Source of the DNA: Chlamydiota bacterium
Lineage (GTDB): Bacteria; Auribacterota; Tritonobacteria; UBA1439
Length of the DNA: 64,000 nucleotides
Direction of reading: 5' to 3'
NCBI GenBank assembly: GCA_012729785.1
Contig: JAAYCL010000015.1
Span: 1 to 64,000, forward strand
Position 1 is the first letter of the stretch. The number at the start of each line of letters is the position of its first letter. The notes under the pieces were generated by a model. The model was not told the origin of the DNA and searched no databases. It worked only from the letters and a program-made list of their open reading frames with translations. The position numbers and the translations under genes are program-made. Of this stretch, positions 21,819 to 45,648 are shown one piece after another.

Positions 21819-22631
21819 ATGGGAGCGCCGGCGCCGCGGGTCGTGGTCGTGATGCCCGCCTACAACGCGGCCAAAACCCTCGAACAGACCTACCGGGACA
21901 TTCCGAGGGACGCCGTCCATCGGATCATCCTCGTGGACGACGTGAGCCGGGACGAGACGGTCGAGATCGCCCGCCGTCTCGGCGTGAAGGTCGTCGTGCA
22001 CATGCAGAACATGGGGTACGGCGGCAACCAGAAGACCTGCTACCTCGAGGCGCTCAGGGACGGCGCCGACATCGTCGTGATGCTGCACCCGGACTACCAG
22101 TACGACTCGCGTCTGATCCCGCGGATGATCGCGCCGATCGCCGAGGGGCGCTGCGACATGGTGCTCGGCTTGCGGATGCTCGACGGCGGGGCGCGCGCCG
22201 GGGGGATGCCGGTCTACAAGATCGTCTTCAACCGGGCGCTCACCGCCTTCCAGAGCCTCGTCTACCGTCAGAGGTTCACCGACCTCCACACCGGCTTCAG
22301 GGCGTATCGCCGGGCGCTCCTCGAGACCGTTCCGTTCCTCCTCAACTCCGACGACTTCGTCTTCGACTCTGAGATGATCGCGCAGGCGTTCGCCTACGGC
22401 TTCAGGATCGGGGAGGTTCCGGTGCCGGCCCGCTATTTTCCGGAGGCCTCGTCCGTGAATTTTTCGGTGAGTTTGCGCTACGGGATCAAGACGCTCGGGG
22501 TGATGGCGAACTACGCGGCGCACGCCGCCGGCCTCGCCCGCCCGCGGCGGTTCCGGCTGCGTCTGAGTCAGATCGTGAGTCAGCACCACCACGAGGGGCT
22601 CTTCAGGGACACGCCCCCCACGGAGGCATAG
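21819..22631 (+). CDS. GT2 family glycosyltransferase (polyprenyl-phosphate sugar transferase-like)
   Basis: A 270-residue GT-A enzyme without membrane helices. VVVMPAYNAAKTLEQTY opens the nucleotide-binding fold. The nucleotide aspartates are in IILVDDVSRDET, and the metal motif is near MLHPDYQYD. DLHTGFRAYRR and NSDDFVFDSEM are also characteristic of dolichol/undecaprenyl-phosphate sugar synthases. Such enzymes make the lipid-linked sugar donors that GT-C membrane glycosyltransferases consume, and GT-C-like genes follow directly (next start 2 bases after the stop). It is probably the donor-making enzyme of the locus. Confidence 0.85.
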   Translation: MGAPAPRVVVVMPAYNAAKTLEQTYRDIPRDAVHRIILVDDVSRDETVEIARRLGVKVVVHMQNMGYGGNQKTCYLEALRDGADIVVMLHPDYQYDSRLIPRMIAPIAEGRCDMVLGLRMLDGGARAGGMPVYKIVFNRALTAFQSLVYRQRFTDLHTGFRAYRRALLETVPFLLNSDDFVFDSEMIAQAFAYGFRIGEVPVPARYFPEASSVNFSVSLRYGIKTLGVMANYAAHAAGLARPRRFRLRLSQIVSQHHHEGLFRDTPPTEA

Positions 22632-22633
22632 CG

Positions 22634-25057
22634 ATGCACGCGCCGAGTCCGGTCGTCTGGAAGGTACCCGTGAACCGGCTGCTCGTTCTCCTCTTCGCCG
22701 CGGCAATCTTCCTCTCGGCGATGACCGACCTCCTCGGTCTCGACATCTGGTGGCACCTCGCCGTGGGGCGCCACCTGGTCCAGACGCGCTCGTTCCCCGC
22801 CCGCGACATCTTCTCCACCACCGGCGCCGCCTGGGACAACAAGGAGTGGCTCTTCGGGATTTTCGTCTATCTCCTGCACCAGGCGGGCGGGGTCGGCCTG
22901 ATGACGCTGGCGAAGGCGGCCCTGTTCACCGCCGTCTTCCTCGTCCTGTACCTCGTGGCCGCGAAACGCTCGAAGAACCGGTACCTCTCCCTCGCGGTGG
23001 TCTTCCTCGCCGCGCTCGCCTGCCGGGTGCGCCTCGCATTCAGGCCGGAGCTCTTCAGCTGGCTCTTCATCGCGCTGCTCCTCCTCTTCATCGAGCAGTT
23101 CCGCGAGGGACGGAGGCGGCCGCTCTGTTTCTTCCCCCTCCTGATGCTCTGCTGGGTCAACGTGCATCCGCTCGCCTTCGTCGGCCTCGGCATCCTGGCG
23201 GTGTGCCTCGCCGGAGGGATCGCCGTGTGCCTCCTCCCGGGCCACGCGGAGAGAAACGGGTGGCAGCGCCTGCGGCCGGGCGACCTCGCCGGTCTCGCCC
23301 TGATTTTTGCCGCATCCTGCCTCGCGTTCACCTGCAACCCCATATCGTGGCGGAGGTTCCTGTCCCCGCTCGAACTGCTCACGAAGCACTCCGACTACCT
23401 CGGCGCGCTCACCGAGGCGGCGCCGCTCCCGCTCTTCCAGTTCCCCGCCTTCGCCTCCTTCGTGCTCCTGGCGGTCTTCACGCTTGTGATGTTCGTCACG
23501 AGCATGGACCCCGCGGACACCCTGCTCGTCGTCCTCTCCGGCGCCGCGTCGGTGGCCATGGCCCGCAACGCCCCGCTCCTCCCCGTGGTCGCGGCGCCGG
23601 CCATCGCCTGCCAGTTCGCCCGTTTCATCGGGCCGCTGGCGCCGGAGATCGCCGCATACCTCTCTCGCCGGCGCACGGCGGCGGACGCCGTCGTCGCGGC
23701 GCTGCTCGTCGCGGCGATGGCGTGGGCGGTCCGCCGGCCCGGGTTCGGGCTCGGGTACGGCGGCATCGTCTATCCCGAGGGGGCCGTGCGCTACGTCGAG
23801 ACGGCGAAACCCCTGGGGCCGATCTTCAACAGCTACGACTGGGGCGGGTTCCTGATATGGAGGATCTACCCAGGGTACCGGGTCTTCATCGACGGACGGG
23901 GGCCCGATGTCTACTCGCCCGAGGTCTGGGCCGAATACGAGACGATCGAGTCGGCGAGGGAGGGATGGGAGGAGGCGCTCGACCGCCGCGGGGTGAACCT
24001 CGTCCTCGTCTCCACCGCGGAGAAACTCCATCCGCTCATCCGCGCCCTGAGCGCGTCGGGCGGATGGCGGCTCGGCTACTGGGATCTTCATTCGATGGTC
24101 TTTTTGCGCGACGTGCCGGGGAACCGGCCGCGCATCGCGGCGGTCCGGTACGCCGTCCTTGACACGGAGAGGATGCGGTTCAGGGGGTGGGACCCGTCGA
24201 TCGAGCTGCAGATACTGGGCGAACTGGACGACTATTTGAAGGAGCACCCGGAGTCGGTCGAGGCGCGCGGGCTCCTCGCCCTTACGTACCTGAACCGGGG
24301 GATGGAGGACCGGGCGATCGAGGAGTTCGAGCGGCTGGCCGCCGCGAACCCCGCCCTCCCGAGAATCCACTACAACCTCGGGATGCTCCGCTCCCGCACG
24401 GGCGACGACGCGCGGGCGGCCGCCGACTACGAGAAGGAGATCGCGCTGGACGACTCGTTCGCCCCCGCCCACAACAACCTCGGGCGCATCCGGTTCGAGC
24501 GGGGAGACCTCCGCCTCGCCGAGAGATCGTTCAGGAAGGCGCTGAAGGCCGACCCGAACTACATCCACGCGATCAACAACCTCGGCCTCGTCTACCTCGA
24601 GCAGGAGGATGCCACGAGGGCCCTCGCCGAGTTCTCCAGGGCCCTCGAGATCGACCCCGCCTACGAACCCGCCGCGCGGAACATCGCTCTCGCGCGGGAG
24701 ATCTCGTCGAACCCCGCCCGCACGCTCACCCGCATGGGGCAGTTCTACTACGCCCAGGACAACCTCGACAAGGCGGAACGGCTCTTCATCCGGGCGCTCT
24801 CGCACGATCCGCGGCACGCGGCCGCCATCGGCAATCTCGGCGTCGTGGCGCTCAGGAGAGGGATGCGCGAGGAGGCGATCCGGCGGTTCAGGGAGGTCCT
24901 CGAGATCGCGCCCGACGACGAGGGGGCGCGCCGGCATCTCGCGCTGGCGGAGGCGATGGCGGCCGGGGGCGGACCGTCCGCCGCTCCGCCCCTCTCGAAC
25001 GCCGGATCGAACGCGGAGGCGCCCGCCCCGCCGGCGCCTCCCGGGGGGGGGCGGTGA
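22634..25057 (+). CDS. Polytopic GT-C-like membrane protein with C-terminal TPR domain
   Basis: An 807-residue protein. Residues about 15-380 carry about ten membrane helices. An early periplasmic loop has LDIWWHLAVGRHLV, an acidic/aromatic motif where GT-C enzymes keep their catalytic carboxylate. A soluble segment (about 390-500) has GPIFNSYDWGGFLIWR followed by RVFIDGR. Residues about 540-780 are tetratricopeptide repeats (for example AHNNLGRIRFERGDLRLAE). The same plan and motifs recur at 29199-31007, so the two are paralogues. It overlaps the next gene by 4 bases (GTGA). The acceptor is unknown. Confidence 0.7.
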   Translation: MHAPSPVVWKVPVNRLLVLLFAAAIFLSAMTDLLGLDIWWHLAVGRHLVQTRSFPARDIFSTTGAAWDNKEWLFGIFVYLLHQAGGVGLMTLAKAALFTAVFLVLYLVAAKRSKNRYLSLAVVFLAALACRVRLAFRPELFSWLFIALLLLFIEQFREGRRRPLCFFPLLMLCWVNVHPLAFVGLGILAVCLAGGIAVCLLPGHAERNGWQRLRPGDLAGLALIFAASCLAFTCNPISWRRFLSPLELLTKHSDYLGALTEAAPLPLFQFPAFASFVLLAVFTLVMFVTSMDPADTLLVVLSGAASVAMARNAPLLPVVAAPAIACQFARFIGPLAPEIAAYLSRRRTAADAVVAALLVAAMAWAVRRPGFGLGYGGIVYPEGAVRYVETAKPLGPIFNSYDWGGFLIWRIYPGYRVFIDGRGPDVYSPEVWAEYETIESAREGWEEALDRRGVNLVLVSTAEKLHPLIRALSASGGWRLGYWDLHSMVFLRDVPGNRPRIAAVRYAVLDTERMRFRGWDPSIELQILGELDDYLKEHPESVEARGLLALTYLNRGMEDRAIEEFERLAAANPALPRIHYNLGMLRSRTGDDARAAADYEKEIALDDSFAPAHNNLGRIRFERGDLRLAERSFRKALKADPNYIHAINNLGLVYLEQEDATRALAEFSRALEIDPAYEPAARNIALAREISSNPARTLTRMGQFYYAQDNLDKAERLFIRALSHDPRHAAAIGNLGVVALRRGMREEAIRRFREVLEIAPDDEGARRHLALAEAMAAGGGPSAAPPLSNAGSNAEAPAPPAPPGGGR

Positions 25058-27255
25058 AGAGGGGGGCCCTCATCGCCGCGGCGCTTTTCGCGGGGCTCTT
25101 CATCGTCTATCTCGCCTGCCTCGCCCCGAACTGGGGAGCGATGTCGCTCTTCAACACCTGGGACGGCCTCGAGTACGTCGTCTGCGCGAACCTCCTCGGC
25201 ATCGACCACCCCCCGGGGCACCCGGCGTACATGCTCCTCGGAAAGCTCTTCACGATGCTGCCGTTCGGCGGCCCGTCATGGAGTATCAACCTCCTCTCGG
25301 CGGTCTTCGGGGCGGGGACGGTCGCCGTGCTGTTCCTTGCGCTGGTCGAGATGCACGCCCCCTCCCGCCGTGCGGGGGAGCGCGGCGCGCCGTCGTGCGG
25401 ACCGTTGCGCGAGGAGTGGTCGGGCCTCCTCGTCGCCCTCGCCGCCGCGCTGACCTTCGCCTTCTCATACGTCTTCTGGTCGCACTGCGAGATCCCCGAG
25501 GTCCACACGCTCTTCCTGTTCCTGACGGGGGCCTCCGTGCTCGGCGTTTTGAAGTGGCACGGCGGCGGCCGGGAGGGGTGGCTCGCCGTCTCCGCCGGAG
25601 CGCTCGGCCTCGCCCTCGGCGTGAACCTCCTCGGCGTCCTCCCCGTCCTCATCCCCGTCGCGGCGTTCGCGCTCGCCTCGGCCCGCGTGCGCGGCGTCCG
25701 CCCGCGGTGGGCGGTCCCCGCGGCGCTCCTCCTCGCGGGGGCGCTGTCGTACCTCTACTACCCGATCCGCCTCGCCGCCCGGCCCGGCATCTACAGCCAC
25801 CCGATGAACTATCTCTGCCCGTTCGAGATGGGGAGCGCCGCGTGGTACCGGTGGTTCCTCTCGGGGAAGGCGTGGACGGGGGGGACGATGTTCTTCCTGA
25901 ACCGCCTGCTCCCCAACGTCCCGCTCTATCTCACGTACGCCGTCCCCGACGTCGGGTATCCGCTCTTCGCGCTCGCCCTCGCGGGAATCGCCCTCGCCGC
26001 GGCTGATCTCCACGCGTGCGTCGCGGCGCTCAGGCGCGGCGACCGTGCCGGGGCGGCCGCGCGCCTGCCGCTCCCGTTCCTCGTCGCGCTCTTCGCCCTC
26101 TCCTTCGTCCCCGAGATCTCCATCCACGACCCGAGCAATCCGCGCGCGACGGACTACCTGGCCAACTTCTTCCTCCCCTCGATCTTCCTCCTCGTCTTCC
26201 CGGGCGCCGCCGTGGCGCTGCGCGTTAACGAATTCATGTTCAACCGCTCGCTTCAGGCTGCAGGACTGGTGTGCATCGCGCTTCTCATCGCGCTGCTCGC
26301 GATGCCCGCCGTGCAGGTCGCGCGGAATTATTCGCGCTGCGATCTCAAGGGCGAGGAGTGCGCCTACGTGCTGGGGAGGCGGACGCTGGCGCAGCTCCCC
26401 CAGGAGGCGGTGATCGTCTCGAAGCTCGTATACGGCCTCCTCGACGCGTACTTCAGCGAGGTGGAGCGCGCCGTCCCCCCCGACAAGATATCGCTCCTCG
26501 ACCCCGAGGTGGTGGGCCGGGAGCTCGCGCGCGGGGGCGCCGGCAAGGACCTGTTCGCGCGGAAAAACCGCCTGATGCTCGACGAGATCTCCCGCCGGCT
26601 CGCCGCCGGGAAGGCCGTCTTCATCGCGGGCGACGTCGTGGACGAGGACAAGTCGCCCGAGAAGCTCCTCCTCTCCGATCTCGACCTCGCCCCCTGGCGG
26701 CCAAACCTCCCGCCCGAGGAGGCGTGCCTGGTCTTCCCGCGCGAGCTGTTCCTCTGCCGCGTCGCCGGCCTGCGCGGGGCGCAACACGTCGACGGCGTCC
26801 CCGCGGAGGCGCCGCGAGGGATCGCCAACGACGGGGCCTTCTCCAACGGCATGGAGCTCCTCGGCTTCCACCCGGAGCCGCCCGACAGGGGTATCCGCGG
26901 CGACCTGCTCTCCCTCGCCGTCTACTGGAAGACGTCGGCGCCGGTGGCGGGGGAGATCTACGCCGGGATCTTCTTCCTGGACCCGATGCTGCGGAGGATC
27001 GGCGAGCCGTGCTGGCACACGGTGGGAGGTTCGTTCGGTCCGGAAAAGTGGGAGACGGGCGCCGTGGTGCGGGAGCGGGTGGATATCTATCCGCCTCCGC
27101 TCCCCCCGGGGCGCTACCTCATGGCGATCGGGCTGGTCGGGGCCGACGGCGAGCGGATCGGCTACCTGCCGAGGCGCGCGGAGACGCCGGGGAGGGCGTA
27201 TGATTACATGGTGCTGGTCCCGTACGATCAAGGAGCGCCGCCGCGCGCGGGGTAG
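25054..27255 (+). CDS. DUF2723-type GT-C membrane protein
   Basis: A 733-residue protein starting with GTG inside the previous stop (25054-25057). NTWDGLEYVVCANLLGIDHPPGHPAY is split here as NTWDGLEYV and GIDHPPGHPAY, typical of DUF2723 proteins, which resemble protein O-mannosyltransferases. About ten membrane helices cover residues 1-430. A C-terminal soluble part (about 590-725) has the layout of a beta-sandwich (LLSLAVYWKTSAPVAGEIY and a later PPPLPPGRYLMAIGL). It probably transfers a sugar from a polyprenyl phosphate on the outer face of the inner membrane. Confidence 0.75.
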   Translation: MKRGALIAAALFAGLFIVYLACLAPNWGAMSLFNTWDGLEYVVCANLLGIDHPPGHPAYMLLGKLFTMLPFGGPSWSINLLSAVFGAGTVAVLFLALVEMHAPSRRAGERGAPSCGPLREEWSGLLVALAAALTFAFSYVFWSHCEIPEVHTLFLFLTGASVLGVLKWHGGGREGWLAVSAGALGLALGVNLLGVLPVLIPVAAFALASARVRGVRPRWAVPAALLLAGALSYLYYPIRLAARPGIYSHPMNYLCPFEMGSAAWYRWFLSGKAWTGGTMFFLNRLLPNVPLYLTYAVPDVGYPLFALALAGIALAAADLHACVAALRRGDRAGAAARLPLPFLVALFALSFVPEISIHDPSNPRATDYLANFFLPSIFLLVFPGAAVALRVNEFMFNRSLQAAGLVCIALLIALLAMPAVQVARNYSRCDLKGEECAYVLGRRTLAQLPQEAVIVSKLVYGLLDAYFSEVERAVPPDKISLLDPEVVGRELARGGAGKDLFARKNRLMLDEISRRLAAGKAVFIAGDVVDEDKSPEKLLLSDLDLAPWRPNLPPEEACLVFPRELFLCRVAGLRGAQHVDGVPAEAPRGIANDGAFSNGMELLGFHPEPPDRGIRGDLLSLAVYWKTSAPVAGEIYAGIFFLDPMLRRIGEPCWHTVGGSFGPEKWETGAVVRERVDIYPPPLPPGRYLMAIGLVGADGERIGYLPRRAETPGRAYDYMVLVPYDQGAPPRAG

Positions 27256-27351
27256 CGCCCCGGCGCGAGAAGGGCGGGGATCCGGCGATGCGCGCACCCC
27301 CCCTGTCCCCGGCGCGCCGCCTCTCCCCGGCCCCCCGGGGGTCGAGAGACG

Positions 27352-29202
27352 ATGAACCGCATCTGCGCCGGAATTAAACGGATCGATTTCCACGCGGCGG
27401 CGTCCCGGGCCGCCGTGGCGGGCGTGGCAACCCTGTTCGTGCTCGTGCCGCTGGCGTGGTGGCCGAAGGACCCGTACGGGCTCGTCAAGTGGACGCTGGT
27501 CGGGATGGTCGCCACCCTCGCCGCCTCGCTGCGTCTGGCGTCGTTTCTCGCGGCGGGGGAAACCCCGTTCCGCCGTAACGCGATGAATCTCCCGCTTTTC
27601 CTCCTCCTCGCCTGGTCGTGCCTCTCGCTGTGGAGCGGTCCGCCGGCGTACTACGTCCGCTGGCGGCTCTGCGAGCTCCTGTTCTTCGCGCTCCTCTACG
27701 TCGCGCTCGTCGCCGGCGCCGACACCCCCGGGCGGAGGACCCTGGCCGCCGCGGGGGCGCTCGCGGGCCTTGCGGCGATCTCCCTCCTCGGCATCGGCCA
27801 CTTCGCGGGGCTCTTCGGCGTGGAGAGCCCGTGGGGGACCGGGCTCGGCCGGCGCGTCTACGCCACGATGCTCAACCCCAACTACCTGGCGGATTTCATC
27901 GTGGGCCTCTTCCCCCTCTCCCTCGCCTTCTTCGTCTTCCACGCGCCGCGGCTCCGGCACCGGGCGGTTTTCGCCGCCGTCGCGTTCGTTTCGTGTGCCT
28001 GCCTCCTCTTTACCGTGTCGTGGGGCGGCTGGCTCGGCTGGCTTGTCTCGATCGGCGTTCTGGCGGGGTTCGCGAGGGGGAGGTGCCGCCGGGGCGCCGC
28101 GCTGCCGCGTTTCGCGGCGCTCGTCGCGCTCCTGTTCGCCTGTTTCGGCGCGTTCCTCTTCGCGAACCGGCACACCGTCGCCGCCGACTACACGGGCATG
28201 CGGACGCGCCTGCTCTACTGGCGGGCGTCGTGGGCGATGATCCGCGAGAGGCCGGTCGTCGGGCACGGCCTGAACAGTTTCCAGCCGTATATCTCCAGGT
28301 ACCTCACGGAGATCGTCGCCGCCGATTTTCCCGGCGGCGTCCCCGAGGGCGGGGTGACCGTCTACGAGGGGAACTTCGCGCACAACGAACTACTGGCCAC
28401 CTGGCTCGAAACGGGCCTGGTCGGCGTCGCCCTCCTGGCCTGGCTCCTGGGCGCCTTCTTCTCCCAGGCGGCGCGGAACCTCTCCCGGGACGCGGGGCCG
28501 CTCGAGGCCGCGCTGAACGTCGGGGCGGCGGGCGGCGTCGCCGCGATGCTCGCGCAGGGGATGGTCAGCTACCCGTTCCGCGTCCCGGCGTCGATGACGG
28601 CGCTCGCGTTCCTCTTCGCCGTCGTCGGGAGCGGGGCGGCGACCGTTCCGCTCCGGCTCTCGTGCGTCCGCCTCCCCGCCGCCGGGCGCGCGGTGCTCGC
28701 CCTCCTCGCCGCGGCGGCGGGGCCGGCGCTCCTGCCGGCGATCGCCTCCCCGCTTCGGGGGGAGCGGCGGTACGTCGAGGCGCGCTACGCGTCATTCGCC
28801 GGCGCGTGGGAACGGGCGCGCAGCCGCTGCCGCGAGGCGCTCAGGCGCTCGGTCACCGAGCCGGAGGCGTACGACCTGCTCGGCGAGGCGGAGGAGCGGT
28901 GCGGGTCGCCGGGTGAGGCGATCGAGGCGTACCGGCGGAAGCTCGAACTCATGCCGTTCGACGTGCGCGCCCACACGAGGCTCGGCGTCCTGTATTCCCT
29001 CCTCGAAATGGAGGCGGAGGCGGAGCGGCACCTGCGGGAGGCGGTATCGCTCGAGCGCCACGACTCCGCGGAGGCGCGGCTGCGGCTGGCCCGGATGCTC
29101 TCGCGCCGGGGCGGGGAGGCCGAGGCCCGACATCTCCTCGAGGAGGGGAGGCGCCGATTCGGCGCGAACCTGCGGGCGGGGAACGCGGGGGGGAACCGAT
29201 GA
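27352..29202 (+). CDS. O-antigen ligase/polymerase-like membrane protein with C-terminal TPRs
   Basis: A 616-residue polytopic protein of the Wzy/WaaL (Wzy_C) type. MLNPNYLADFIVGLFPLSLA matches the ligase helix with its Asn-Pro-Asn. RLLYWRASWAMIRERPVVGHGLNSF is the large periplasmic loop (given here from Arg to the GHG motif, RPVVGHG). HNELLATWLETGLVGVALL is the conserved helix that follows. Residues about 490-610 are TPR-like. The family joins or polymerises lipid-linked glycans. The 96-bp gap before it holds nothing recognisable. Its stop overlaps the next start (29199-29202). Confidence 0.75.
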   Translation: MNRICAGIKRIDFHAAASRAAVAGVATLFVLVPLAWWPKDPYGLVKWTLVGMVATLAASLRLASFLAAGETPFRRNAMNLPLFLLLAWSCLSLWSGPPAYYVRWRLCELLFFALLYVALVAGADTPGRRTLAAAGALAGLAAISLLGIGHFAGLFGVESPWGTGLGRRVYATMLNPNYLADFIVGLFPLSLAFFVFHAPRLRHRAVFAAVAFVSCACLLFTVSWGGWLGWLVSIGVLAGFARGRCRRGAALPRFAALVALLFACFGAFLFANRHTVAADYTGMRTRLLYWRASWAMIRERPVVGHGLNSFQPYISRYLTEIVAADFPGGVPEGGVTVYEGNFAHNELLATWLETGLVGVALLAWLLGAFFSQAARNLSRDAGPLEAALNVGAAGGVAAMLAQGMVSYPFRVPASMTALAFLFAVVGSGAATVPLRLSCVRLPAAGRAVLALLAAAAGPALLPAIASPLRGERRYVEARYASFAGAWERARSRCREALRRSVTEPEAYDLLGEAEERCGSPGEAIEAYRRKLELMPFDVRAHTRLGVLYSLLEMEAEAERHLREAVSLERHDSAEARLRLARMLSRRGGEAEARHLLEEGRRRFGANLRAGNAGGNR

Positions 29203-31007: not shown

Positions 31008-31072
31008 CGGTATCCGTCGAACGGCATTTGCCGCGGAGATCACGGAGGATGCGGAGGCAGGAAGAGTCGTCA

Positions 31073-31149
31073 GCCACGGATCGGCACGGATGGGACGGAT
31101 CTTCACGGATATGGAAGATGTATCCGTGTCGATCCGTGAAATCCGTGGC
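31073..31149. repeat. 77-bp imperfect palindrome built from CACGGAT/ATCCGTG words
   Basis: GCCACGGAT at 31073-31081 pairs with ATCCGTGGC at 31141-31149. Inside, further CACGGAT copies on the left face ATCCGTG copies on the right, giving a long hairpin with internal repetition. It lies in the 181-bp gap between two membrane-protein genes. A shorter relative is at 5264-5303. The remaining gap sequence shows nothing else. Confidence 0.6.
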
Positions 31150-31188
31150 AGATCGGATCTAGATGCGCTTCGGGGACCTGATTTGAAG

Positions 31189-36216: not shown

Positions 36217-38616
36217 ATGCGGGACACGATTCGACTGCGGGACCGCCACTGCATCCTCCTCCTTGCCGCCCTCGCCGCCGCGCTCTTCCGGAAGGCGCTC
36301 TTCGGGGGGGCGGTGATCCTCAGCCACCCGGTGTTCCTGGATCTCACGCACCAGGTCTTCGCCTACCGGCGGTACGGATTCGGCCTTCTCCGTGAGGGGA
36401 TCGTCCCCCTCTGGAACCCGTACAACTTCTGCGGCGCGCCGTTCCTCGCCAACTGGCACTCGGCGATCTTCTACCCGCTGAACGCGATCTTCCTCCTCCT
36501 CCCCGTCCACACCGCGCTCAACTGGTCGATCGCGTTCCACTTCTTCCTCGCCGGCGCGCTCACCTACGCGTTCGTGCGCCTCGTGGGTGGAGGGCGCGCG
36601 GGCGCGCTCCTGTCGGCGGTCGTCTTCGTCCTCTCCGGCCCGTACATCCTTCAGCTCTTCCCCGGCCACATCTTCAACCCGCTCCCGTGGCTCCCGCTCG
36701 CGCTCATCTGCGGGGAGATGGCCGTGCGCCGGCGGCGGGCGGTCTGGTGCCTCCTCGCGGGCGTCGTCCTCGGCGTCCAGATCCTCGCGGGGCACCCCCA
36801 GTACATGGCGTACTGCGCCGGGGCGCAGGCGCTCTATATCCTCTTCCGCGCCGCCTCGGAATGCCGGGGGGAGGGGGCCGCGCGGCCGCTCATCGGCGCC
36901 GCCGCGGGGATCGCCCTGATGGTCGCGACCGGCGCGGCCCTCTCGGCGGTGCAGCTCCTCCCGGGGCTGGAGTTCGCCGCGGAGTCGGGGAGGGCGGGCC
37001 TCGCCGGCCCCGCCGCGGTGCGCGACAACTCGCTCCCCCCCGAGAACCTAGCCCTGCTGGCCGTGCCGGGGCTCTTCGGCGACATGCAGGGGGTCCGGTA
37101 CTGGGGCCGGTGGCTCTACTGGGAGACGTGCATCTACGTCGGCGTTCTGCCGATCCTGCTCGCGATCCTCGGCGCCGTGCGCGGGCGGTCGCCTGTCTCG
37201 CGGTTCTTCGCCGGCCTCGCCCTGCTCACCCTCGTCCTCGCCTTCGGCGCCTACTCGCCGCTCTTCGGCTTTCTCTACGCGCGCGTCCCCGGTTTCTCCA
37301 TCTTCAGGGCGCAGGCGAAGTTCGCCGTCCTCGCCGCGTTCTCGATCGCCGTGCTGGCGGGTTTCGGCCTGCGCCGTCTCCTCGACGGTGCGCACCCGGC
37401 GCGCGGCTCGAGGCGCGCCTGGGCGACGGCCGCGTGCCTCCTCGGCGCGGGGCTGGCCTTTCTCTGCGCGGCCGCGGCGGCTACGGGGGGGGCGGAGTCC
37501 CCGCTCTGGGGACGTCTGGTGGAGTACCGCAACGCGAGGGGGTTCGAGGGGACGCCGCCGATCCACCCCTCGGACACGGCACTGCGGGCGGTGGCATACC
37601 GCACGGCGCTGCGCGGGGGGCTCGCCGCCGCAGGGCTCCTCCTCGTCTCCGGCGGGATCTTCTTCGCCGCGGGCCGGGCGAGACCCGCCCTGCTGGCGGC
37701 CGCCGTGCTGTGCGTCTCGCTCGGAGACCTTTGGCGTTTCGGCGCGCCGTATATCGTCGCGAGTCCGCTCGAGGTCTGCTTCTGGCCCCGAGGGCTCGCC
37801 GAGTTTCTCCGTCTCGACCGCTCGGCGTTCCGCGTGGCCGCGCCGAACATCGGCGTGCCCGGAGCGATGCAGAACATCCACGAGCGGATCTCCGCGATCG
37901 ACGGCTACGAGACGCTGAACATCCGCAGATACAAGGAGTACGTGGACGCGTCGCAGGGGAGGGCGCCCGGGGGCCGGCTCGACTTCGCGATCGAAAGGAT
38001 CGCGCCGATGCTCCGGGCGCTCAACCTCAAGTACGTGCTCCTCCCCGCGGGCGATCCGCCCCCGGGCCCGCCGTTTGGCCCGGTCTTCGCCGACGGGCGC
38101 ACCGTCGTCCACGGCACGAACGACCCCCTGCCGCGTGCGTTCGTCGCGCACCGCGCGCGCCTGATCCCCGATCGCGACGCTTCGCTCGCGGCGCTGAAGG
38201 AGCGCGGCGCGGCGGTCCTGGACGAGGTGATCCTCCACGCCGACCCGGGCGTTCGCCTCGACGATCCCGCGCCCGGCGCACCCCCGGGCCGCGCCGGGGT
38301 GGTCGCGGAGGGGCCCAACGAGGTGCGGATCGAGGCGGCGCTGGACCGCCCGGGGTTCCTCGTCGTGCACGACGTCTACTATCCCGGCTGGAGGGCGTAC
38401 CTGAACGGCCTGGAGGTGCCGATCCTGAGGGCGAACCACGCCTTCCGTGCGGTGCACCTCGGGAAGGGGCGCCACGAGGTGCGCTTCGTCTACGCCCCCC
38501 GCTCCTTCGCCGTCGGCTGGCGTGTGAGCGCCGTTTCCGCGCTCCTCGTGACGGCGGCGCTCCTCCAGGCGGCACTCGACGCGCGCCGGCGGACCGTTTC
38601 GGCGGTGCGGCGGTGA
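36217..38616 (+). CDS. YfhO-like membrane protein (second of three)
   Basis: A 799-residue protein of the same family as its upstream neighbour. VPLWNPYNFCGAPFLANWHS and AIFYPLNAIFLLLPVHT align motif for motif with that gene, as does the C-terminal YPGWRAYLNG and LRANHAFRAVHLG domain. About twelve membrane helices are expected. It has its own promoter region (36142-36184) and a GGAGG ribosome site (36208-36212). The pair probably arose by tandem duplication and may act on different sugars or acceptors. Confidence 0.75.
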   Translation: MRDTIRLRDRHCILLLAALAAALFRKALFGGAVILSHPVFLDLTHQVFAYRRYGFGLLREGIVPLWNPYNFCGAPFLANWHSAIFYPLNAIFLLLPVHTALNWSIAFHFFLAGALTYAFVRLVGGGRAGALLSAVVFVLSGPYILQLFPGHIFNPLPWLPLALICGEMAVRRRRAVWCLLAGVVLGVQILAGHPQYMAYCAGAQALYILFRAASECRGEGAARPLIGAAAGIALMVATGAALSAVQLLPGLEFAAESGRAGLAGPAAVRDNSLPPENLALLAVPGLFGDMQGVRYWGRWLYWETCIYVGVLPILLAILGAVRGRSPVSRFFAGLALLTLVLAFGAYSPLFGFLYARVPGFSIFRAQAKFAVLAAFSIAVLAGFGLRRLLDGAHPARGSRRAWATAACLLGAGLAFLCAAAAATGGAESPLWGRLVEYRNARGFEGTPPIHPSDTALRAVAYRTALRGGLAAAGLLLVSGGIFFAAGRARPALLAAAVLCVSLGDLWRFGAPYIVASPLEVCFWPRGLAEFLRLDRSAFRVAAPNIGVPGAMQNIHERISAIDGYETLNIRRYKEYVDASQGRAPGGRLDFAIERIAPMLRALNLKYVLLPAGDPPPGPPFGPVFADGRTVVHGTNDPLPRAFVAHRARLIPDRDASLAALKERGAAVLDEVILHADPGVRLDDPAPGAPPGRAGVVAEGPNEVRIEAALDRPGFLVVHDVYYPGWRAYLNGLEVPILRANHAFRAVHLGKGRHEVRFVYAPRSFAVGWRVSAVSALLVTAALLQAALDARRRTVSAVRR

Positions 38617-38624
38617 GGCCGCTC

Positions 38625-38633
38625 TGGTATCAT
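38625..38633 (+). promoter_or_regulatory. Extended -10 promoter TGG-TATCAT
   Basis: TGG at 38625-38627 and TATCAT at 38628-38633 form an extended -10 box just after the upstream stop. No convincing -35 is present. The start site would be near 38640, ahead of the gene at 38672. The CTCTGG context resembles the 36176 promoter. Confidence 0.4.
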
Positions 38634-38671
38634 TGAGCCCGCATCTGACGCGACACCCGGATGACGCCCCC

Positions 38672-40273
38672 ATGGAACACCGGACACGACATTCGCTTCT
38701 CGTCCCGGCCCTCCTCTTCGGCCTCTCGTGCCTCGTCCTCGCCCCGACGGTCATCTACCCGTTCGGGAGGGACCAGGGGATCTTCGGCTATGCCGGGCAC
38801 CTGGCGCGTGCGGGGGGGGTTCCGTTCAAGGATTTCTGGGACCCCAAGCCCCCCGCCCTCTACTACGTCTACGCCCTGGCGGAACTGCTCTTCGGCCGCT
38901 CGATGGCGTCGATCAGGATCCTCGACCTCCTCTGGCAGGCAGCGACCGCCGTGCTCATCTTTTGGATCAGGCGGCGCGCAAACCCCCGTCGCATCGACGC
39001 GGCGTTCGCCGCGGGGCTTGTCTACATTCTCGCGTATGCGTCGATGGGGTGGTGGAACACCGCCCAGCCGGACTATTTCCTCAACCTGCCGCTCGCGGGA
39101 GCGGTCCTGCTCACGCTGCGCGCCTGCGCAGGCGATCGTGCGCGGGGCTGTTCGTTCAGCGTCGGCGCCCTCGCGGCGTGCGCGTTCTATTTGAAGTATC
39201 CGATGGGCGCGATGCTTCTCGTGTGCGCGGGGTGCCTCGTCTGGCGGAGGGGCGCGCGGGGCGCCGCCGTCGATATAGCCGCGATGGCGGCCGGGTTCGC
39301 AGTCGTCGCCGGGGGGTACGCGCTCTACCTCGCCTGCGTCGGGGCGTGGCGTGAGTTCTGGTATGCGGAGTTCGTGTGGGTGCGGCAGTACGCCCGGCTG
39401 GGGGGGATGGCGGGCGGCGCGGCGGGGTTTCTGCGCCTCCGGGACCTGCTGAACTCCCACGTCAGCGTCGTAGCCCTCGGCGTCCTCGCCCTCGCCGGGG
39501 GCATCCGGGCGACGACGGGCGGCCGGTCCGGCCTCCCCGCCGCGCTGGTCTCCCTCTGGGCCGTTGTCGCCGCGATCAACCTGTATATCCAGAACAAGTT
39601 CTACCTCTACCACTTCGGCCCGCTTCTCGCGCCTTTTGCGATCGGGGCTTCTACCGCGCTGGCGGCTCCGTTCGACCGCAGGATGCGGCCGGCATTTCGT
39701 TTCGCCGCCGCGGCCTTCGCCGCGGGCGTGGTGGGGACTTCGTTCGCCTTCGCGAACCCGCGGTACAACGCCTACTGCGTCCGGGTCTACGTCGACACGG
39801 TGCGCGTTCTCGCGGGGCGGGAGTCCCCCGCCGGCTATTACCGGAATGTGCGGTTCACCTCGGACGATTTCTCCCTGCCCGCGAACCTCGCGGTGGCGGA
39901 GCATTTCGCGCGATGCACCGCCCCCGGCGACACCGTCTTCATCTGGGGGTACGAAACAGTGGTCTATTTCCTCGCGGGGCGGGACTGCCCCACGCGCTTC
40001 ATCCACAACTTTCCACTGCGCTGCCCGTGGGGGTCGGCGCGCTTCGGCGATGAACTCCTCGCGTCGCTCGACAGGGCGCGTCCGAACTACATCGCGCTCC
40101 TCGAGAACGATCCCGTCTGGTGGGCGACGGGTACGCGCGAGGATTCGCTCGAAGCGCTCCGCAGGTACCCGGCCCTCGAGCAGTTCATCGCATCGCGGTA
40201 CATCCCCGAGGGACGGATCGAGGATTTTCTCCTGTTCAGGCGCCGGGAGGGGGAGGACGGGGATGCGCGCTAG
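38672..40273 (+). CDS. GT-C family membrane glycosyltransferase (ArnT/PMT-like)
   Basis: A 533-residue protein with about eleven membrane helices. YPFGRDQGIFGYAGHLARAGG carries the acidic catalytic-loop motif (GRDQG), and DFWDPKPPALYYVYAL is the second characteristic loop, as in PMT_2-type lipid-linked sugar transferases. A C-terminal soluble tail (about 430-533) includes TVFIWGYETVVYF and RFIHNFP. The ATG at 38672 is preferred; a TTG at 38633 is in frame. Its stop lies 11 bases inside the next gene. Confidence 0.75.
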   Translation: MEHRTRHSLLVPALLFGLSCLVLAPTVIYPFGRDQGIFGYAGHLARAGGVPFKDFWDPKPPALYYVYALAELLFGRSMASIRILDLLWQAATAVLIFWIRRRANPRRIDAAFAAGLVYILAYASMGWWNTAQPDYFLNLPLAGAVLLTLRACAGDRARGCSFSVGALAACAFYLKYPMGAMLLVCAGCLVWRRGARGAAVDIAAMAAGFAVVAGGYALYLACVGAWREFWYAEFVWVRQYARLGGMAGGAAGFLRLRDLLNSHVSVVALGVLALAGGIRATTGGRSGLPAALVSLWAVVAAINLYIQNKFYLYHFGPLLAPFAIGASTALAAPFDRRMRPAFRFAAAAFAAGVVGTSFAFANPRYNAYCVRVYVDTVRVLAGRESPAGYYRNVRFTSDDFSLPANLAVAEHFARCTAPGDTVFIWGYETVVYFLAGRDCPTRFIHNFPLRCPWGSARFGDELLASLDRARPNYIALLENDPVWWATGTREDSLEALRRYPALEQFIASRYIPEGRIEDFLLFRRREGEDGDAR

Positions 40274-42188
40274 GCGGCGGATCCACGCGGCGGCGCTCGC
40301 GGCGCTCTTCTTCTTTGCGTACGCCTGGTTTTTGCCGCCGGGGTCGCCGGAACTGTTCGGGACGAACAACGCCGTCCGGTTCTATCTCGCCAAGAGCCTC
40401 GCCTTCGACGGCGACGTCACGATCGAGCGTTACTACCGGGGGGGGATCGACGCCGCCTCCTTCGGCGGGCATCTGTATTCCGGCAAGGCGCCCGCGGCGT
40501 CGTGTTTCGCGGCCCCGGTGATCCGGCTGGTCTCCCTCGTCGCGAAGGCGCCGCGCGCCGTTCCCGACCGGGTCTACCTCTACCTGGCGCGGGTCGCGGT
40601 GATCTCCATCCCCTCGGTCGCGATGATCCTCGCCCTCCACGGTTTCCTCCTCCGCCTCGGCGTTTCCGACCGGCGCGCCGACCTCCTCTGCCTCGGCTAC
40701 GGCCTCGGCACGATGGCGTTCCCGTACAGCACGGAGTTCGTCGGGCACCAGCTCGCCGCCGCCTTCCTCTTCTTCGGTTTCCTGGCGCTGGCCTCCGCCC
40801 GGGGGATCCGCGGCCCCGGCCGCTTCGGCGCCTCGACGGTTCGGTGCGCCCCGTTCGCGGCGGCAGGCCTCTGCGCGGGCTTCGCCGTCGCCAGCGACTA
40901 TCAGACGGCGCTGATCGCGGCGCTGCTCTTCGCCGCGATGGTCCCCCTTCGCCGCCCGCGGTGCGTCGCCGCCTTCGCCTTCGGCTGCATCCCCGGCGCG
41001 GCGATGATCCTCGCCTACAACCACGCCTGCTTCGGGAACCCGTTGAGTTTTCCCTACGCGCACGAGGCGATGCCGATCGCCCGGCAGGTGCAGGGGCAGG
41101 GGCTCTTCGGCGTGCAGACGCCGCGGCTCGTCCCGCTCGCGAAACTCGCCTTCAGCCCCTGGCGGGGGCTCTTCTTCGGCTCGCCGTTCCTCCTCCTGGC
41201 CGCGCCCGGCCTGCGGGCCCTGTGGCGCGGGGAGGCGGGGGACGCGGCCGGCATCGGCGACAGACGGCTCGCCGCGATCTGCCTCTGCGCGTGCGGCGGC
41301 TACCTCCTCTTCAACTCCTCCTACGGGGCCTGGTCGGGGGGCGCCGGGTACGGCCCGCGGTTCCTCGTCCCCGCGATCCCGTTCCTGTGCATCCCCGTCG
41401 CCGCGTTCGCCGTTCGTGCCTCGAGGGGCGCCTGGATCCTGGCGGCGGCGCTCATCGCCTGCTCGGTCGCGTATCATCTCGTCGGGACCGCGGCGGGGCC
41501 GCTCGCGCACGAGTACCTGCGGAACCCGGTGCGGGAGTTTCTGCTGCCGTCCCTCCTCCGGGGCAACGTCAGGCCGAACTGGGGGGCGGAGGCGGGATGG
41601 CCGCCCGCGGCGGGGCTGGCGGCGCTCGTCGCGATCCTCTCCCTCTGCGGCGTCGTCGCCCGGTCGACCGCGAAAGGCGGAACGGGGGGGGAGGGGCGGA
41701 GGCGCCCCGATCCGGCCGGGCGGGCGCTGCTGTTCCTCTGCGCGGCCGCCGCGGGCGCGATGGCGCTGCTCTTCCTCCTGCACCGCACGGAGGAGACGGC
41801 CTACCGCTATGGGGTGCTCGGCCACGGCTACGAGGTCGCGGGGGACGCGGATGCGGCGATCGCCTGCTTCGAGAAGTCGCTGGAGATGGACCCGCGCGAC
41901 GGCAGGGTGATCGACGACCTCACCAGGCTGCTGATCGAACGGGGCGACCACCGGCGGGCGCTCGAGGCGAACATCCGCGCGTTCTCCGTGGCGCCTCGCC
42001 CCCAGGCGGGCGAGCGCTGCGCCCTCCTCGCGCGCCTCGCGTCCCTCTCGGAGCGCATCGCCACGTCGCCGGGAGACGCCGCGCTGCGCGCCGAACACGC
42101 CCGTCTCCTTGAGGGGCTTGGGGTCCAAACCGCGGCTACGCCGGACGGGCGAAACGCCGCCGGCGAGACGATGGGGCGGTCACGGTGA
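40263..42188 (+). CDS. Polytopic GT-C-like membrane protein with short TPR tail
   Basis: A 641-residue protein with about eleven membrane helices. The N-terminal loop TNNAVRFYLAKSLAFDGD and the YSGKAPAASCFAAP segment resemble other GT-C-like proteins of polysaccharide loci. SYGAWSGGAGYGPRFLVPAIP is a typical external-loop motif. Residues about 520-600 form a TPR-like pair (GYEVAGDADAAIACFEKSLE). The ATG at 40263 overlaps the previous gene by 11 bases. The substrate is unknown. Confidence 0.68.
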   Translation: MRARRRIHAAALAALFFFAYAWFLPPGSPELFGTNNAVRFYLAKSLAFDGDVTIERYYRGGIDAASFGGHLYSGKAPAASCFAAPVIRLVSLVAKAPRAVPDRVYLYLARVAVISIPSVAMILALHGFLLRLGVSDRRADLLCLGYGLGTMAFPYSTEFVGHQLAAAFLFFGFLALASARGIRGPGRFGASTVRCAPFAAAGLCAGFAVASDYQTALIAALLFAAMVPLRRPRCVAAFAFGCIPGAAMILAYNHACFGNPLSFPYAHEAMPIARQVQGQGLFGVQTPRLVPLAKLAFSPWRGLFFGSPFLLLAAPGLRALWRGEAGDAAGIGDRRLAAICLCACGGYLLFNSSYGAWSGGAGYGPRFLVPAIPFLCIPVAAFAVRASRGAWILAAALIACSVAYHLVGTAAGPLAHEYLRNPVREFLLPSLLRGNVRPNWGAEAGWPPAAGLAALVAILSLCGVVARSTAKGGTGGEGRRRPDPAGRALLFLCAAAAGAMALLFLLHRTEETAYRYGVLGHGYEVAGDADAAIACFEKSLEMDPRDGRVIDDLTRLLIERGDHRRALEANIRAFSVAPRPQAGERCALLARLASLSERIATSPGDAALRAEHARLLEGLGVQTAATPDGRNAAGETMGRSR

Positions 42189-44083
42189 AGGCGAGACCAT
42201 CGGGAGAGGCGCGCGGCGGCGTCGCGGGGAGCGGCACCTGGTGGCCGGTTCCGTGGATCCTCCTCGCCGTGGCGGTTGTCTTCTGGGGGCCGGTCGCCTC
42301 CCAGATGGGGAACTGGGGCGAGGATATGTGGCACCGGGCGTTTACGCTCGCCGGCGCCGCGCGGAAGACGATCCTGGAGTACCGCCAATTCCCCTTCTGG
42401 AACCCGTACCTTTCGGGCGGGGCTCCGCTCCTCGCCAACCCCGCCTCCTCGTTCCTCTCGCCGTCGTTCGTCCTCGTGCTCGCGGCGGGTACGATCCCGG
42501 GCCTCAAGCTCAGGATCCTGCTGGCCCTCTGGATCGGCCTCTGCGGGGGCTGGTTCCTCGGGCGGCGGATCGCCCCGGGGCGGGTGTCGCCGTTGGCGTG
42601 CGCGTTCCTCTTCATGCTCGGGAGCTGGTACCCGCTCTACATGTCACGATGGCACGACGAGTTCATCCCGTTCGTATACGTCCCGTGGCTGCTCGCCTTC
42701 TTCATCCTCGCCGAGGAGGAGAGGAGATGGGCCGCGCCCGCGGGGGGCACGCTCGCACTGATGTTCATGGAGGGTGGGGTATACCCGGTCCCCTACGCGG
42801 TGCTGTTCGTCGCGGTGTTCGCCGCGTGCGAATCCCTCAGGCTCCGGCGGCCCGCGCCGCTCGCCGCCCTCGGCCTGCTCCTCCTCGTCGGCGCTCTCCT
42901 GGCCGGTTTGAAGCTCCTCCCCTCGATCGATCTCCACCTGCGCCATCCGAGGCCCACCTTCTGGAGGGAGCCGGCGCTGCCGTGGCGGGCGGTGCCCAGG
43001 ATGCTGTGGGGGAGGGACCAGCTCTCCCCGAGCGGCTTCAGGGGGGCGTGGCTGGGGTGGTGGGAGTACGGGATGTACGTGGGGGTCGTCCCGCTGGCGC
43101 TGGCGCTCGTCGGCCTGCGCGTGCAGATGCGCCGCATCTGGCCGATCGCGGCGACGGGCCTTCTCTTCGGTGCGCTCGCGTTCGGGGACTACGGGCCCCT
43201 CTCCCCCTGGCGATGGGTCCACCGCCTCCCCGTCTTCTCCTCGATGCACGACCCGGTGCGTTTTCGTGTTCTTGTCGTGCTCTGCGTCGCGATGCTCGCC
43301 GCCAGGGGCCTCTGCTGCATCGAGACGGTTTGGACGGAGAGGAGGCGCGGATTCGGGCGCGCCTGCGCCGCCGCCGCCGCCGCGTGGATGCTCGTCGATC
43401 TCTGGAGCGTCTGCGGCGGCATCTACGGGACGGTCGCGCGCGTCCGGCCGGGTGCCCCCTCGCGGCGGGGGCCGTTCCGCCAGGCGAAGCTTCCGAAAGC
43501 GGAACAACAGGGGCCCCGCGCCTACCGCTGCTTCATCGAAAACGAAGGGCTTGTGAACAACTACGAGCCGCTCGATCTGCCCGACGCCGGGGTGCTGGCC
43601 TATGACGAGCCGGGCTATCGGGGGGAGGCGTGGCTCGATGGAGTGGGGGGACGGGTCGTTACGGAGCTCTGGACGCCCAACCTCCTTCGCTTCCGGATCG
43701 AGACCGCGCGGGAGGCGACGCTGGTGGTCAACCAGCGCTACGATTCCGGGTGGCGCGCGGGGGACGGCCCCGCGGCGCGCAGAGGCGGACTCCTCGCGGC
43801 GAGGCTCTCCCTCGGCGTGCAGGTCGTCACCCTGCGGTATGTCCCCCCGCTCTTCGGAGCCGGCTGCGCCCTCTCCGTGCTCGGGGCCGCCCTCGCGGTC
43901 GCCGTCTGGCGCGGGAAACGGGAGACCGCCGCCCCGCCACGTCAGCCGCTTCGGCCGGCCGGGGGGGCGGACGGCGCGACTCTGACGAACAACGCCTCCA
44001 TCAAAACCGCTTGCGGGTCCGTGAATAGCGGCCTCGACGTCGACGGATCGAACAGGACCGCGGGCCGCGCGTCGGCCACGTAG
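42185..44083 (+). CDS. YfhO-like membrane protein (third, divergent)
   Basis: A 632-residue protein with about eleven membrane helices. FPFWNPYLSGGAPLLANPAS corresponds to the Trp-Asn-Pro-Tyr motif of the two YfhO-like genes upstream, and WHRAFTLAG precedes it. The last membrane helix ends near 43920. The final 48 residues lie over the 3' end of the convergent gene (overlap 43942-44083) and have no recognisable fold, so they may be a late extension caused by loss of an earlier stop. It starts inside the previous stop (42185-42188). Confidence 0.65.
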   Translation: MKARPSGEARGGVAGSGTWWPVPWILLAVAVVFWGPVASQMGNWGEDMWHRAFTLAGAARKTILEYRQFPFWNPYLSGGAPLLANPASSFLSPSFVLVLAAGTIPGLKLRILLALWIGLCGGWFLGRRIAPGRVSPLACAFLFMLGSWYPLYMSRWHDEFIPFVYVPWLLAFFILAEEERRWAAPAGGTLALMFMEGGVYPVPYAVLFVAVFAACESLRLRRPAPLAALGLLLLVGALLAGLKLLPSIDLHLRHPRPTFWREPALPWRAVPRMLWGRDQLSPSGFRGAWLGWWEYGMYVGVVPLALALVGLRVQMRRIWPIAATGLLFGALAFGDYGPLSPWRWVHRLPVFSSMHDPVRFRVLVVLCVAMLAARGLCCIETVWTERRRGFGRACAAAAAAWMLVDLWSVCGGIYGTVARVRPGAPSRRGPFRQAKLPKAEQQGPRAYRCFIENEGLVNNYEPLDLPDAGVLAYDEPGYRGEAWLDGVGGRVVTELWTPNLLRFRIETAREATLVVNQRYDSGWRAGDGPAARRGGLLAARLSLGVQVVTLRYVPPLFGAGCALSVLGAALAVAVWRGKRETAAPPRQPLRPAGGADGATLTNNASIKTACGSVNSGLDVDGSNRTAGRASAT

Positions 44084-45648
44084 CAGGGGACCGACAGCCG
44101 GCCAACGTACAGGAGCCGCGACAGCGCGCCCCCGGCCACGAGCGGGTCGATCAGGTTCGGGTCGTCGATGCGGCGCTCCCGGTAGCAGCGGGCGTAGAGC
44201 GCGAGGTACCGCCTGAGCACGAGCTGCGGCGTGGAGTCCGGCGGCCGCATCAGGCGCGGCGACAGGAACCATGCGGCATCGTCGGCCCGCCGGTCCGTCT
44301 CGCGCGCGAGCCGGTACAGCGCGCGGTGGTCGAAGTAGAAATAGTACTTGAGCTTCTCTGCCCACCACCGTTTCTCCTCGATGCGGCAGTCGATCCGATT
44401 GGCCGTGATGCCGAGGAGGAGGCGCGTGCTCGAGACGTTGGCCCACACGAGCGCTCCGTAGAGCGCGAGGACGGGGGCGGAGACGGCGAATCTCCGCACC
44501 CATGACCGCTTTTCCGCGAGCAGGCCGTCCCAGGCGATCCCGATCGTCAGGAATACCGGCAGCGTGCACGAATCCCACCGCTCGACCACCCACGAGTCGT
44601 ACAGGAACGAATGCCCCGCGTCGAGGAGGAACCATGCCCAGAGGATCCGCACCGCCCGTCTCCGCCGCTCCCGGAACGCCGCGTACAGGTAGACGGCGAA
44701 GAAGATGACGATCAGGGCCGGCCCGAGACGGTCGCGGTCGTACAGGTTTGTGTGGATGTAGAGCTCCTGAAACCCGTACAGGCTGGAGCGTATCCCGGCC
44801 CAGACGAAGACGAGATGGTCGCGAAGCGGCGGGCGGGGCGGGGTGAGGGCGAAGCGCCCCGGAACGCGGTGGAAGACCCAGAAGTCCAGTTTCGACGCGG
44901 CGGGCTCGGCGTCGCTCTGCACCCAGTAGAGGAGGTAGAGGGAGCCGAAGACGGCGACGAACCCCAGCAGCGCCGCGCCGGCGATCCGGGCGCGCCCCGC
45001 GCGCGGCGGCGGCCGGACAACCGCCGGGGCGAGCAGGAGGGGCAGGGCGACGACGTTCTTCATGTGCGCCGCCAAGCTCAGGGCCGCGGCGGCCCCCGCG
45101 GCGAACGCCCAGGCGAGCGGATGCCGCTCCCTCCGTCCGGGATGAACCGCCCCGCTCGCGGCGAGGACGACCCAGACGAAGACGAGGGTGAACAGGTTGG
45201 CGAGCGGATTGTCGTCGGCGGTGGTGATGAGCCACGAGTAGCCGAGCGTGAAGAGGGGGGCGATGCTCGTCGCCAGCATGACCGGGAAGCGCCGCATCGT
45301 CCCCCTGCAGATCAGGAAGAGGGCGGGGACGGTGAGGACGGCGCAGACGAAGGTGCAGATCTTGAACCCCGCGAGGAAGTCCCAGCCGCCCCACGGCTCG
45401 TACGCCTTCGCGAACGCGTAGACCAGGGAGAACATCAGGAGATGGAACTTCGTGAACCAGCCCTTGACGGCGAGGCCTGAGAGGAGGGTCATCCGCCCCT
45501 CCATCGGCGCGAGGGAGACGGCCCAGTTGAGGGTGTCCCCGTCCACGCAGAGATTGGCGGAGAGGGTCCACCCGTAGATCCCCGCGACGAGCGCCATCGC
45601 CGCGAGGAGCGCAACAAGGCGTGCCGCGCTCGATCGACCGGGCATCAT
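43942..45648 (-). CDS. Polytopic membrane protein, function unknown (GT-C-like)
   Basis: A 568-residue protein with about ten membrane helices. VDGDTLNWAVSLAPMEGR near residue 34 is an acidic first-loop motif such as GT-C proteins have, and FTKFHLLMFSLVYAFAKAYE follows. Another feature is TADDNPLANLFTLVFVW. I do not recognise a named family. The ATG at 45648 is fixed by an in-frame TAG four codons upstream, and a -10 box (TATAGT) lies only 8 bases before it, so translation probably begins at or near the first base of the mRNA. It converges on, and overlaps, the gene ending at 44083. Confidence 0.7.
   Translation of the reverse strand: MMPGRSSAARLVALLAAMALVAGIYGWTLSANLCVDGDTLNWAVSLAPMEGRMTLLSGLAVKGWFTKFHLLMFSLVYAFAKAYEPWGGWDFLAGFKICTFVCAVLTVPALFLICRGTMRRFPVMLATSIAPLFTLGYSWLITTADDNPLANLFTLVFVWVVLAASGAVHPGRRERHPLAWAFAAGAAAALSLAAHMKNVVALPLLLAPAVVRPPPRAGRARIAGAALLGFVAVFGSLYLLYWVQSDAEPAASKLDFWVFHRVPGRFALTPPRPPLRDHLVFVWAGIRSSLYGFQELYIHTNLYDRDRLGPALIVIFFAVYLYAAFRERRRRAVRILWAWFLLDAGHSFLYDSWVVERWDSCTLPVFLTIGIAWDGLLAEKRSWVRRFAVSAPVLALYGALVWANVSSTRLLLGITANRIDCRIEEKRWWAEKLKYYFYFDHRALYRLARETDRRADDAAWFLSPRLMRPPDSTPQLVLRRYLALYARCYRERRIDDPNLIDPLVAGGALSRLLYVGRLSVPCYVADARPAVLFDPSTSRPLFTDPQAVLMEALFVRVAPSAPPAGRSG

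Follow-up and report, generated by a model that had tools for sequence, protein, structure and literature searches.

Does a 24-kb run of genes for polytopic membrane proteins in a genome of Candidatus Auribacterota encode one set of outer-face glycosyltransferases that serve a common product, or enzymes with separate tasks that happen to be neighbors? The run covers positions 21819-45648 of the window, by which we mean the whole stretch of 64,000 nucleotides that was analysed. The host assembly, on which the genome-wide profile counts were based, is a 2.58-Mb MAG of 45 contigs, and the named genomes nearest to it by sigma-54 are MAGs of Candidatus Auribacterota. The block consists of one GT2 gene (g1), eleven genes for polytopic proteins on the plus strand (g2-g12) and one convergent gene for a polytopic protein on the minus strand (g13), which gives twelve polytopic proteins in total. 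A previous reading of the same DNA, made from the letters and their translations (hereafter, the sequence-only reading), had given the limits of the block and the single convergent gene correctly, and had counted ten plus-strand membrane proteins since the 323-aa protein encoded by g7 (32796-33767) was overlooked. The GT2 gene lies at 21819-22631, the last plus-strand membrane gene ends at 44083 and the convergent gene covers 43942-45648.

The GC content at third codon positions was 0.87-0.95 across all genes of the block, as in real genes of this genome, and the open reading frames are thus taken to be real genes. Overlaps of 4 nt were found at the g2/g3, g4/g5, g6/g7, g7/g8 and g11/g12 junctions and an overlap of 11 nt at g10/g11, while g1 and g2 are spaced by 2 nt and the larger gaps measure 55-181 nt. 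With six of the eleven junctions overlapping and another of only 2 bp, most of the run from g1 to g12 is therefore probably co-transcribed, as judged from the spacing of the genes. Promoter and terminator scans of the block gave signals too weak to delimit transcription units. The gap between g5 and g6 (about 31008-31188) contains several CACGGAT and ATCCGTG repeats in both orientations, which resemble REP-like elements, and a protein judged by eye to be similar to REP-associated transposases is encoded on contig C1 (L127:3638-4603).

Nine of the proteins, those encoded by g2, g3, g5, g6 and g8-g12, belong to the GT-C superfamily, as assigned by family membership (g3, g6, g8, g9 and g10), by profile comparison (g12) or by AF2 models and Foldseek searches (g5 and g11, with g2 placed through its homology to g5). 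The g3 protein (25054-27255, +), recognized as a DUF2723 protein in the sequence-only reading, matched this family under its present name, TMEM260-like (PF11028, E 4.2e-27, 95.5 bits against a cut-off of 24.2), and contains the conserved W-D-x-x-E and GxxHPPGHP motifs. Its match to the solved structure of human TMEM260 (9rql, E 9.6e-14) includes an alignment of the D..E...HPPG stretch. The g6 (31189-32799, +) and g10 (38672-40273, +) proteins are of the PMT_2 type, with a match over the cut-off for g6 (E 2.9e-7) and with E 3.2e-11 for g10, which also gave a weak match to an ArnT model (E 0.0018). The start of g6 is probably at 31183-31189 rather than at 31090, and alignments of its orthologues, which begin at about residue 30, were counted in favor of the later start. 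The g11 protein (40263-42188, +) has C-terminal TPRs that are weak in Pfam, and its match to NF047440, a putative glycosyltransferase, was below the cut-off (E 2.3e-9). Its AF2 model, built from 21 sequences, is confident (pLDDT 89.8, pTM 0.90), and Foldseek returned EmbA, Pmt4, ArnT and ALG12 (prob 1.0, E 2e-4 to 6e-3, TM 0.35-0.40 by query length) along with TPR proteins that match the tail. Proteins similar to g11 were found in 18 of 44 genomes of the phylum. The several ArnT-like proteins noted earlier thus correspond to g6, g10 and, by structure, g11.

Three YfhO-like proteins had also been proposed, and two of them were recovered by Pfam. The g9 protein (36217-38616, +), a core member of the block, matched YfhO over the cut-off (E 8.1e-14, 51.4 bits) and has orthologues with 52-58% identity in the relatives G021, G022, G023 and G024. 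Its paralogue g8 (33764-36145, +; hhalign E 2e-288) reached 28.4 bits against a cut-off of 28.5 for YfhO (PF09586), and 31.7 bits in the genome search. The third, g12 (42185-44083, +), gave no direct Pfam match and was placed in the family by profile comparison to g8 and g9 (hhalign E 7e-83 and 1e-86, respectively). The g4 protein (27352-29202, +), which had been described as Wzy/WaaL-like, is of the O-antigen ligase/polymerase type, with a Wzy_C domain (PF04932, E 1.6e-13, 51.2 bits against a cut-off of 31.7) that does not distinguish ligases from polymerases, weak NCBIfam matches to TIGR00947 and RfaL, and C-terminal TPRs with weak Pfam support.

The two proteins that the sequence-only reading had paired by their DxWWH and GPIFNSY motifs are paralogues (hhalign E 1e-169). 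About 10 TM segments are predicted in g2 (22634-25057, +), followed by a C-terminal TPR array (residues ~543-764; Pfam E 5.7e-31), and its orthologues adjoin g3 in G020, G021 and G024. The g5 protein (29199-31007, +) has about 11 TM segments, a periplasmic alpha/beta domain and a short TPR-like tail. None of the 20 TPR-trimmed members of the family gave a meaningful Pfam match for the membrane domain even at E 10, the best being a stray match at E 0.04 for a single member, and the TPR-trimmed profile gave zero sequence matches to solved structures in PDB; the full-length alignments of g5 and g11 matched TPR proteins only. The GT-C assignment of this family therefore rests on the predicted structure. 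The AF2 model of g5, built from 24 sequences, is confident (pLDDT 89.4, pTM 0.89), and its top Foldseek matches were the oligosaccharyltransferase (OST) subunits STT3, PglB and AglB, AftA and ArnT (E 1e-6 to 2e-4, prob 1.0). All matches at E <0.001 were GT-C enzymes, namely archaeal, bacterial and eukaryotic OST catalytic subunits, AftA and ArnT. Both folds that were modelled, g5 and g11, thus match GT-C enzymes, and by homology to g5 the g2 protein is predicted to be one as well. In hhalign, g2 and g5 also resembled g4 and g11, probably through the TPRs that they have in common, and this likeness was not counted as GT-C kinship.

An identification of g5 and g2 as OSTs was rejected: g5 has FNSYG where OSTs have WWDYG, the STT3 family (PF02516) matched none of the 20 trimmed members at E 10, and the PDB search found no related sequence. 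Searching the genome for STT3 gave a borderline match on contig C44, a weaker one on C28 and none in the block. As modelled, the DxWWH/GPIFNSY family is GT-C-like, and its membrane domain is apparently not covered by any family model. Proteins similar to g5 occur in 18 of 44 genomes of the phylum. Since the family is widespread, has no membrane-domain model in Pfam and has a confident GT-C model, a family definition is immediately feasible. At locus L124 (G000:C31, ~2.1-14.9 kb), a further paralogue of the DxWWH type with GT-C and TPR regions has pseudopilin and type II secretion/pilus-like genes nearby, and pseudopilin-like genes are likewise found within ~12 kb of a relative in G020 (L129); a link of the L124 paralogue to the glycosylation of pilins or secreted proteins is possible.

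In g3, g5, g6 and g8-g13, the loop that joins the first and second predicted TM segments contains a conserved acid. The invariant residues in this loop are D37/E40 in g3 (with H52 and H56 also invariant among its orthologues), D69/D70 in g6, D49 in g8, D42 in g9, D47 in g10 (which has a DPKPP motif and in which D67, D70 and K72 are invariant, too), D63 in g11 (with K75 nearly invariant in the 21 sequences), D47 in g12 and D36/D38 in g13. In g5, D33 is invariant together with R300, D419 and R421 across the trimmed 20-member alignment, from which members without the Asp, including the g2 orthologue of G024, had been excluded. The first-loop acid is a putative catalytic residue of the GT-C-A members. 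Invariance is weak evidence for the genes with few homologues, namely g7 (two sequences) and g3, g6, g10 and g13 (five or six each), and for g9 and g12, whose alignments include overlapping copies of a single gene in some rows.

The two other polytopic proteins, g7 and g13, are at most candidates for the GT-C fold. The g7 protein (32796-33767, +), which overlaps its neighbors by 4 nt on each side, has no Pfam match and a weak NCBIfam match to AZOBR_p60025, "cell surface glycopolymer formation" (E 0.001); an orthologue with 61% identity occupies the same position in G001. The convergent g13 protein (43942-45648, -) matched no Pfam or NCBIfam family. Within the phylum it is confined to the same family as the host, with 39-58% identity, and the cassette ends with it in G022, G023 and G024.

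The g1 protein (21819-22631, +) is a GT2 enzyme of the polyprenyl-phosphate-sugar synthase type with no TM segment (PF00535, E 2.7e-22). The nearest NCBIfam models, AglJ, PpgS and dolichyl-phosphate hexose transferase, were all below their cut-offs, and the nearest solved sequence was dolichol monophosphate mannose synthase (5mlz), followed by ArnC. The sequence-only reading had described it as a donor-making enzyme at the head of the array. No g1 orthologue with more than ~35% identity was found in G024 or G022, where the collinear blocks are longest, and among the relatives compared g1 adjoins g2 solely here and in G021, so that g1 is not part of the core. Members of the g1 family with ~50% identity are found in a large part of the phylum. 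A role for g1 as the dedicated donor enzyme of the block was rejected, as the GT2 gene is not conserved with it.

We compared the gene order of the block to that in relatives. In G024, which represents another genus, g2-g3-g4-g5-g6-g9-g10-g11-g12 are collinear and followed by a convergent g13, and in G022 the same holds for g3-g4-g5-g6-g8-g9-g10-g11-g12 and g13. Genes g9-g13 are collinear in G023, with g13 on the same strand, and g2-g5 are collinear in G020, from another family of the class. Shorter segments were recovered from G021 (g1-g5 on one short contig, g9 and a g8-like gene on another) and from G001 (g4-g5-g6-g7-g9 on a short contig), and short contigs limit some of these comparisons. 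Identities of orthologues between genera are mostly 50-66%. None of the window flank genes tested (a HAD gene, thiM, rpoN, an amidase gene and gapA) lies beside the block in G022 or G020. The genes are thus collinear in other genera, in one of them with different flanks, rather than scattered, the outcome that the sequence-only reading had named as a refutation, and the co-conservation across genera was borne out. A chance run of genes was rejected, given the same order in other genera.

We regard the array as an operon-like, conserved set of presumed outer-face glycosyltransferases, and consider it fairly probable that they use polyprenyl-phosphate sugar donors and jointly assemble or decorate a single surface glycan or glycoprotein. 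This reading builds on the gene order, the families, the two predicted folds and the conserved acids. In systems described previously, a GT2 enzyme, a flippase and a GT-C enzyme of the YfhO or PMT_2 type together glycosylate extracytoplasmic polymers (PMC8035078; PMC11127046). With respect to donor type and location of activity, polyprenyl-phosphate donors and an outer-face reaction are supported since they are established for these families (PMC8035078; PMC11127046). From family knowledge and gene order, we infer that the products share a pathway, with a shared acceptor and a division of labor. The donors, polyprenyl-phosphate monosaccharides, would be made by g1 or by others of the many GT2 enzymes of this genome, and a transporter encoded outside the block would flip them. 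About ten GT-C-A enzymes of the TMEM260, YfhO, PMT_2, g11 and DxWWH types would then add single sugars to the common acceptor, using the acid in the first extracytoplasmic loop for the transfer, and g4 would join or transfer a preassembled chain. The TPR tails of g2, g4 and g11 may serve to bind the acceptor or to keep the enzymes in contact with each other, and the product would be one complex surface glycan or glycoprotein.

Some observations count against this reading. The block encodes neither an acceptor nor a sugar-specific enzyme, and its GT2 gene is not conserved with it. A GtrA-type flippase was not found anywhere in the genome (no match to PF04138); a Wzx-like flippase and a MurJ are present, and a flippase of another class may serve instead. 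The left flank in G024 is partly shared with the window (the HAD gene), and part of the synteny with this genome could therefore be background. The g2 orthologue in G024 (L033, G024:C11), still located in the cassette, has PSIWRHL in place of DIWWHL, and its DGR motif is lost as well; because of these losses this copy may be inactive, or else the motif Asp may not be catalytic. The sequence-only reading had spoken of a dedicated glycan-transfer system, which goes beyond the letters, from which donor, acceptor and product cannot be read.

Proteins may alternatively be the main acceptors, such that the cassette mainly serves protein O-glycosylation, with g3, g2 and g11 modifying secreted proteins and g4 transferring chains in the manner of PglL. 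This is a serious rival because g3, in the same Pfam family as the human protein O-mannosyltransferase TMEM260 and matching its solved structure, is TMEM260-like, and because the combination of a GT-C domain and TPRs in g2 and g11 is the layout of TMTC1-4, in which the TPRs are lumenal (PMC7801869). The fold of g5 is, moreover, closest to STT3, PglB and AglB among solved structures. Yet g5 lacks the WWDYG motif and any sequence match to solved STT3, no candidate acceptor protein is encoded beside the block, and the acceptor changes freely among GT-C families. The resemblance to OSTs is further limited by a TM-score of g5 of ~0.45-0.55 by query length, and that to TMEM260 and the TMTCs by a protein acceptor that is putative here and by a DxWWH membrane domain whose sequence is matched by no Pfam family. 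On balance we consider protein O-glycosylation as the main function unlikely. The proposal that the locus builds a complex glycan sugar by sugar on an exported acceptor outside the cytoplasm, with GT-C enzymes doing nearly all of the work, and that the DxWWH proteins are a new GT-C family of OST-like fold with an acceptor-binding TPR arm, in a layout like that of the TMTCs and TMEM260, is in our estimate rather doubtful.

A looser interpretation is that GT-C genes with separate products were collected by duplication and insertion, and that their order was kept by nothing more than shared transcription or slow rearrangement. Genes g7 and g8 come and go, with g8 gained or lost (absent from G024 and, between g7 and g9, from G001), and the array in G022 is longer still, with insertions of several extra GT-C-like genes and three soluble genes. 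The 24 PMT_2 matches at many places in the genome, next to several further YfhO proteins, fit this interpretation and show that the block is not the sole GT-C gene set of the genome, but it contains almost no soluble enzymes. In genera with different flanks, however, one gene order is maintained across ten orthologous families, most of which are not closely paralogous to each other. Random accumulation would not produce this, and we hold a loose collection to be improbable. One of the proteins inserted in the G022 block (L121:2668-4056, G022:C125) is a 463-aa polytopic protein without any Pfam match.

An ordinary O-antigen or capsule pathway with its soluble genes elsewhere, in which the block would provide no more than side-chain decoration and ligation, seems equally improbable. 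The Wzy_C domain of g4 is consistent with it, as are genes for a UDP-glucose dehydrogenase, an epimerase and a DegT aminotransferase ~15 kb upstream of the block, but between these and the block lie priA, succinate dehydrogenase/fumarate reductase and further unrelated genes. Within 21819-45648, no flippase, exporter or soluble glycosyltransferase other than g1 was found, in agreement with the sequence-only reading. Contig C44 has a conventional, separate glycan locus, which encodes an ABC-2 exporter and a Wzx-like flippase as well as GT2 enzymes and additional GT-C proteins. This exporter and flippase could serve such a pathway, but neither Wzx nor an exporter lies inside the core block in any relative examined, and the earlier view that the block is not a normal O-antigen cluster stands. 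Two other genes in the upstream part of the window encode unusual proteins: an 849-aa protein without a Pfam match (239-2785, +) that adjoins the UDP-glucose dehydrogenase, epimerase and aminotransferase genes, and a 593-aa protein (13518-15296, +) with an odd combination of an HMGL-like aldolase (residues 50-322) and a PDC/Cache-type sensor domain (residues 484-591).

Compared to known systems, the set of outer-face transferases that we favor resembles the three-component Gtr type (GtrA/GtrB/Gtr-type; CsbB/GtcA/YfhO) in having the GT2 gene g1 beside GT-C genes of the YfhO and PMT_2 types (PMC8035078; PMC11127046). It differs in the large number of GT-C genes beside no more than one GT2 gene, which is not conserved with the block, and in the lack of GtrA from the genome. 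The mycobacterial arabinan locus, embC-embA-embB with aftA, also contains several large adjacent GT-C genes, and AftA and EmbA are among the top folds for the g5 and g11 models, whereas the families in the block are different and more diverse and no arabinan donor pathway was seen. The g4 protein passes the curated Wzy_C cut-off, as expected of an O-antigen ligase or Wzy polymerase, but it ends in a TPR tail, and its neighbors are GT-C-A enzymes rather than those of an O-antigen locus. Each enzyme type is thus known or resembles a known one, and it is the conserved, nearly enzyme-only array that appears unusual; a literature search found no paper that describes such an array. What is new is the arrangement of known enzyme types, together with the DxWWH/GPIFNSY family, apparently without a membrane-domain model. 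Sugar transfer at the outer face is usually described for small three-gene systems. A conserved array of ten to twelve genes would show that a large share of the glycan assembly of a bacterium can take place outside the cytoplasm. It would also give biochemists a small collection of GT-C enzymes of several types.
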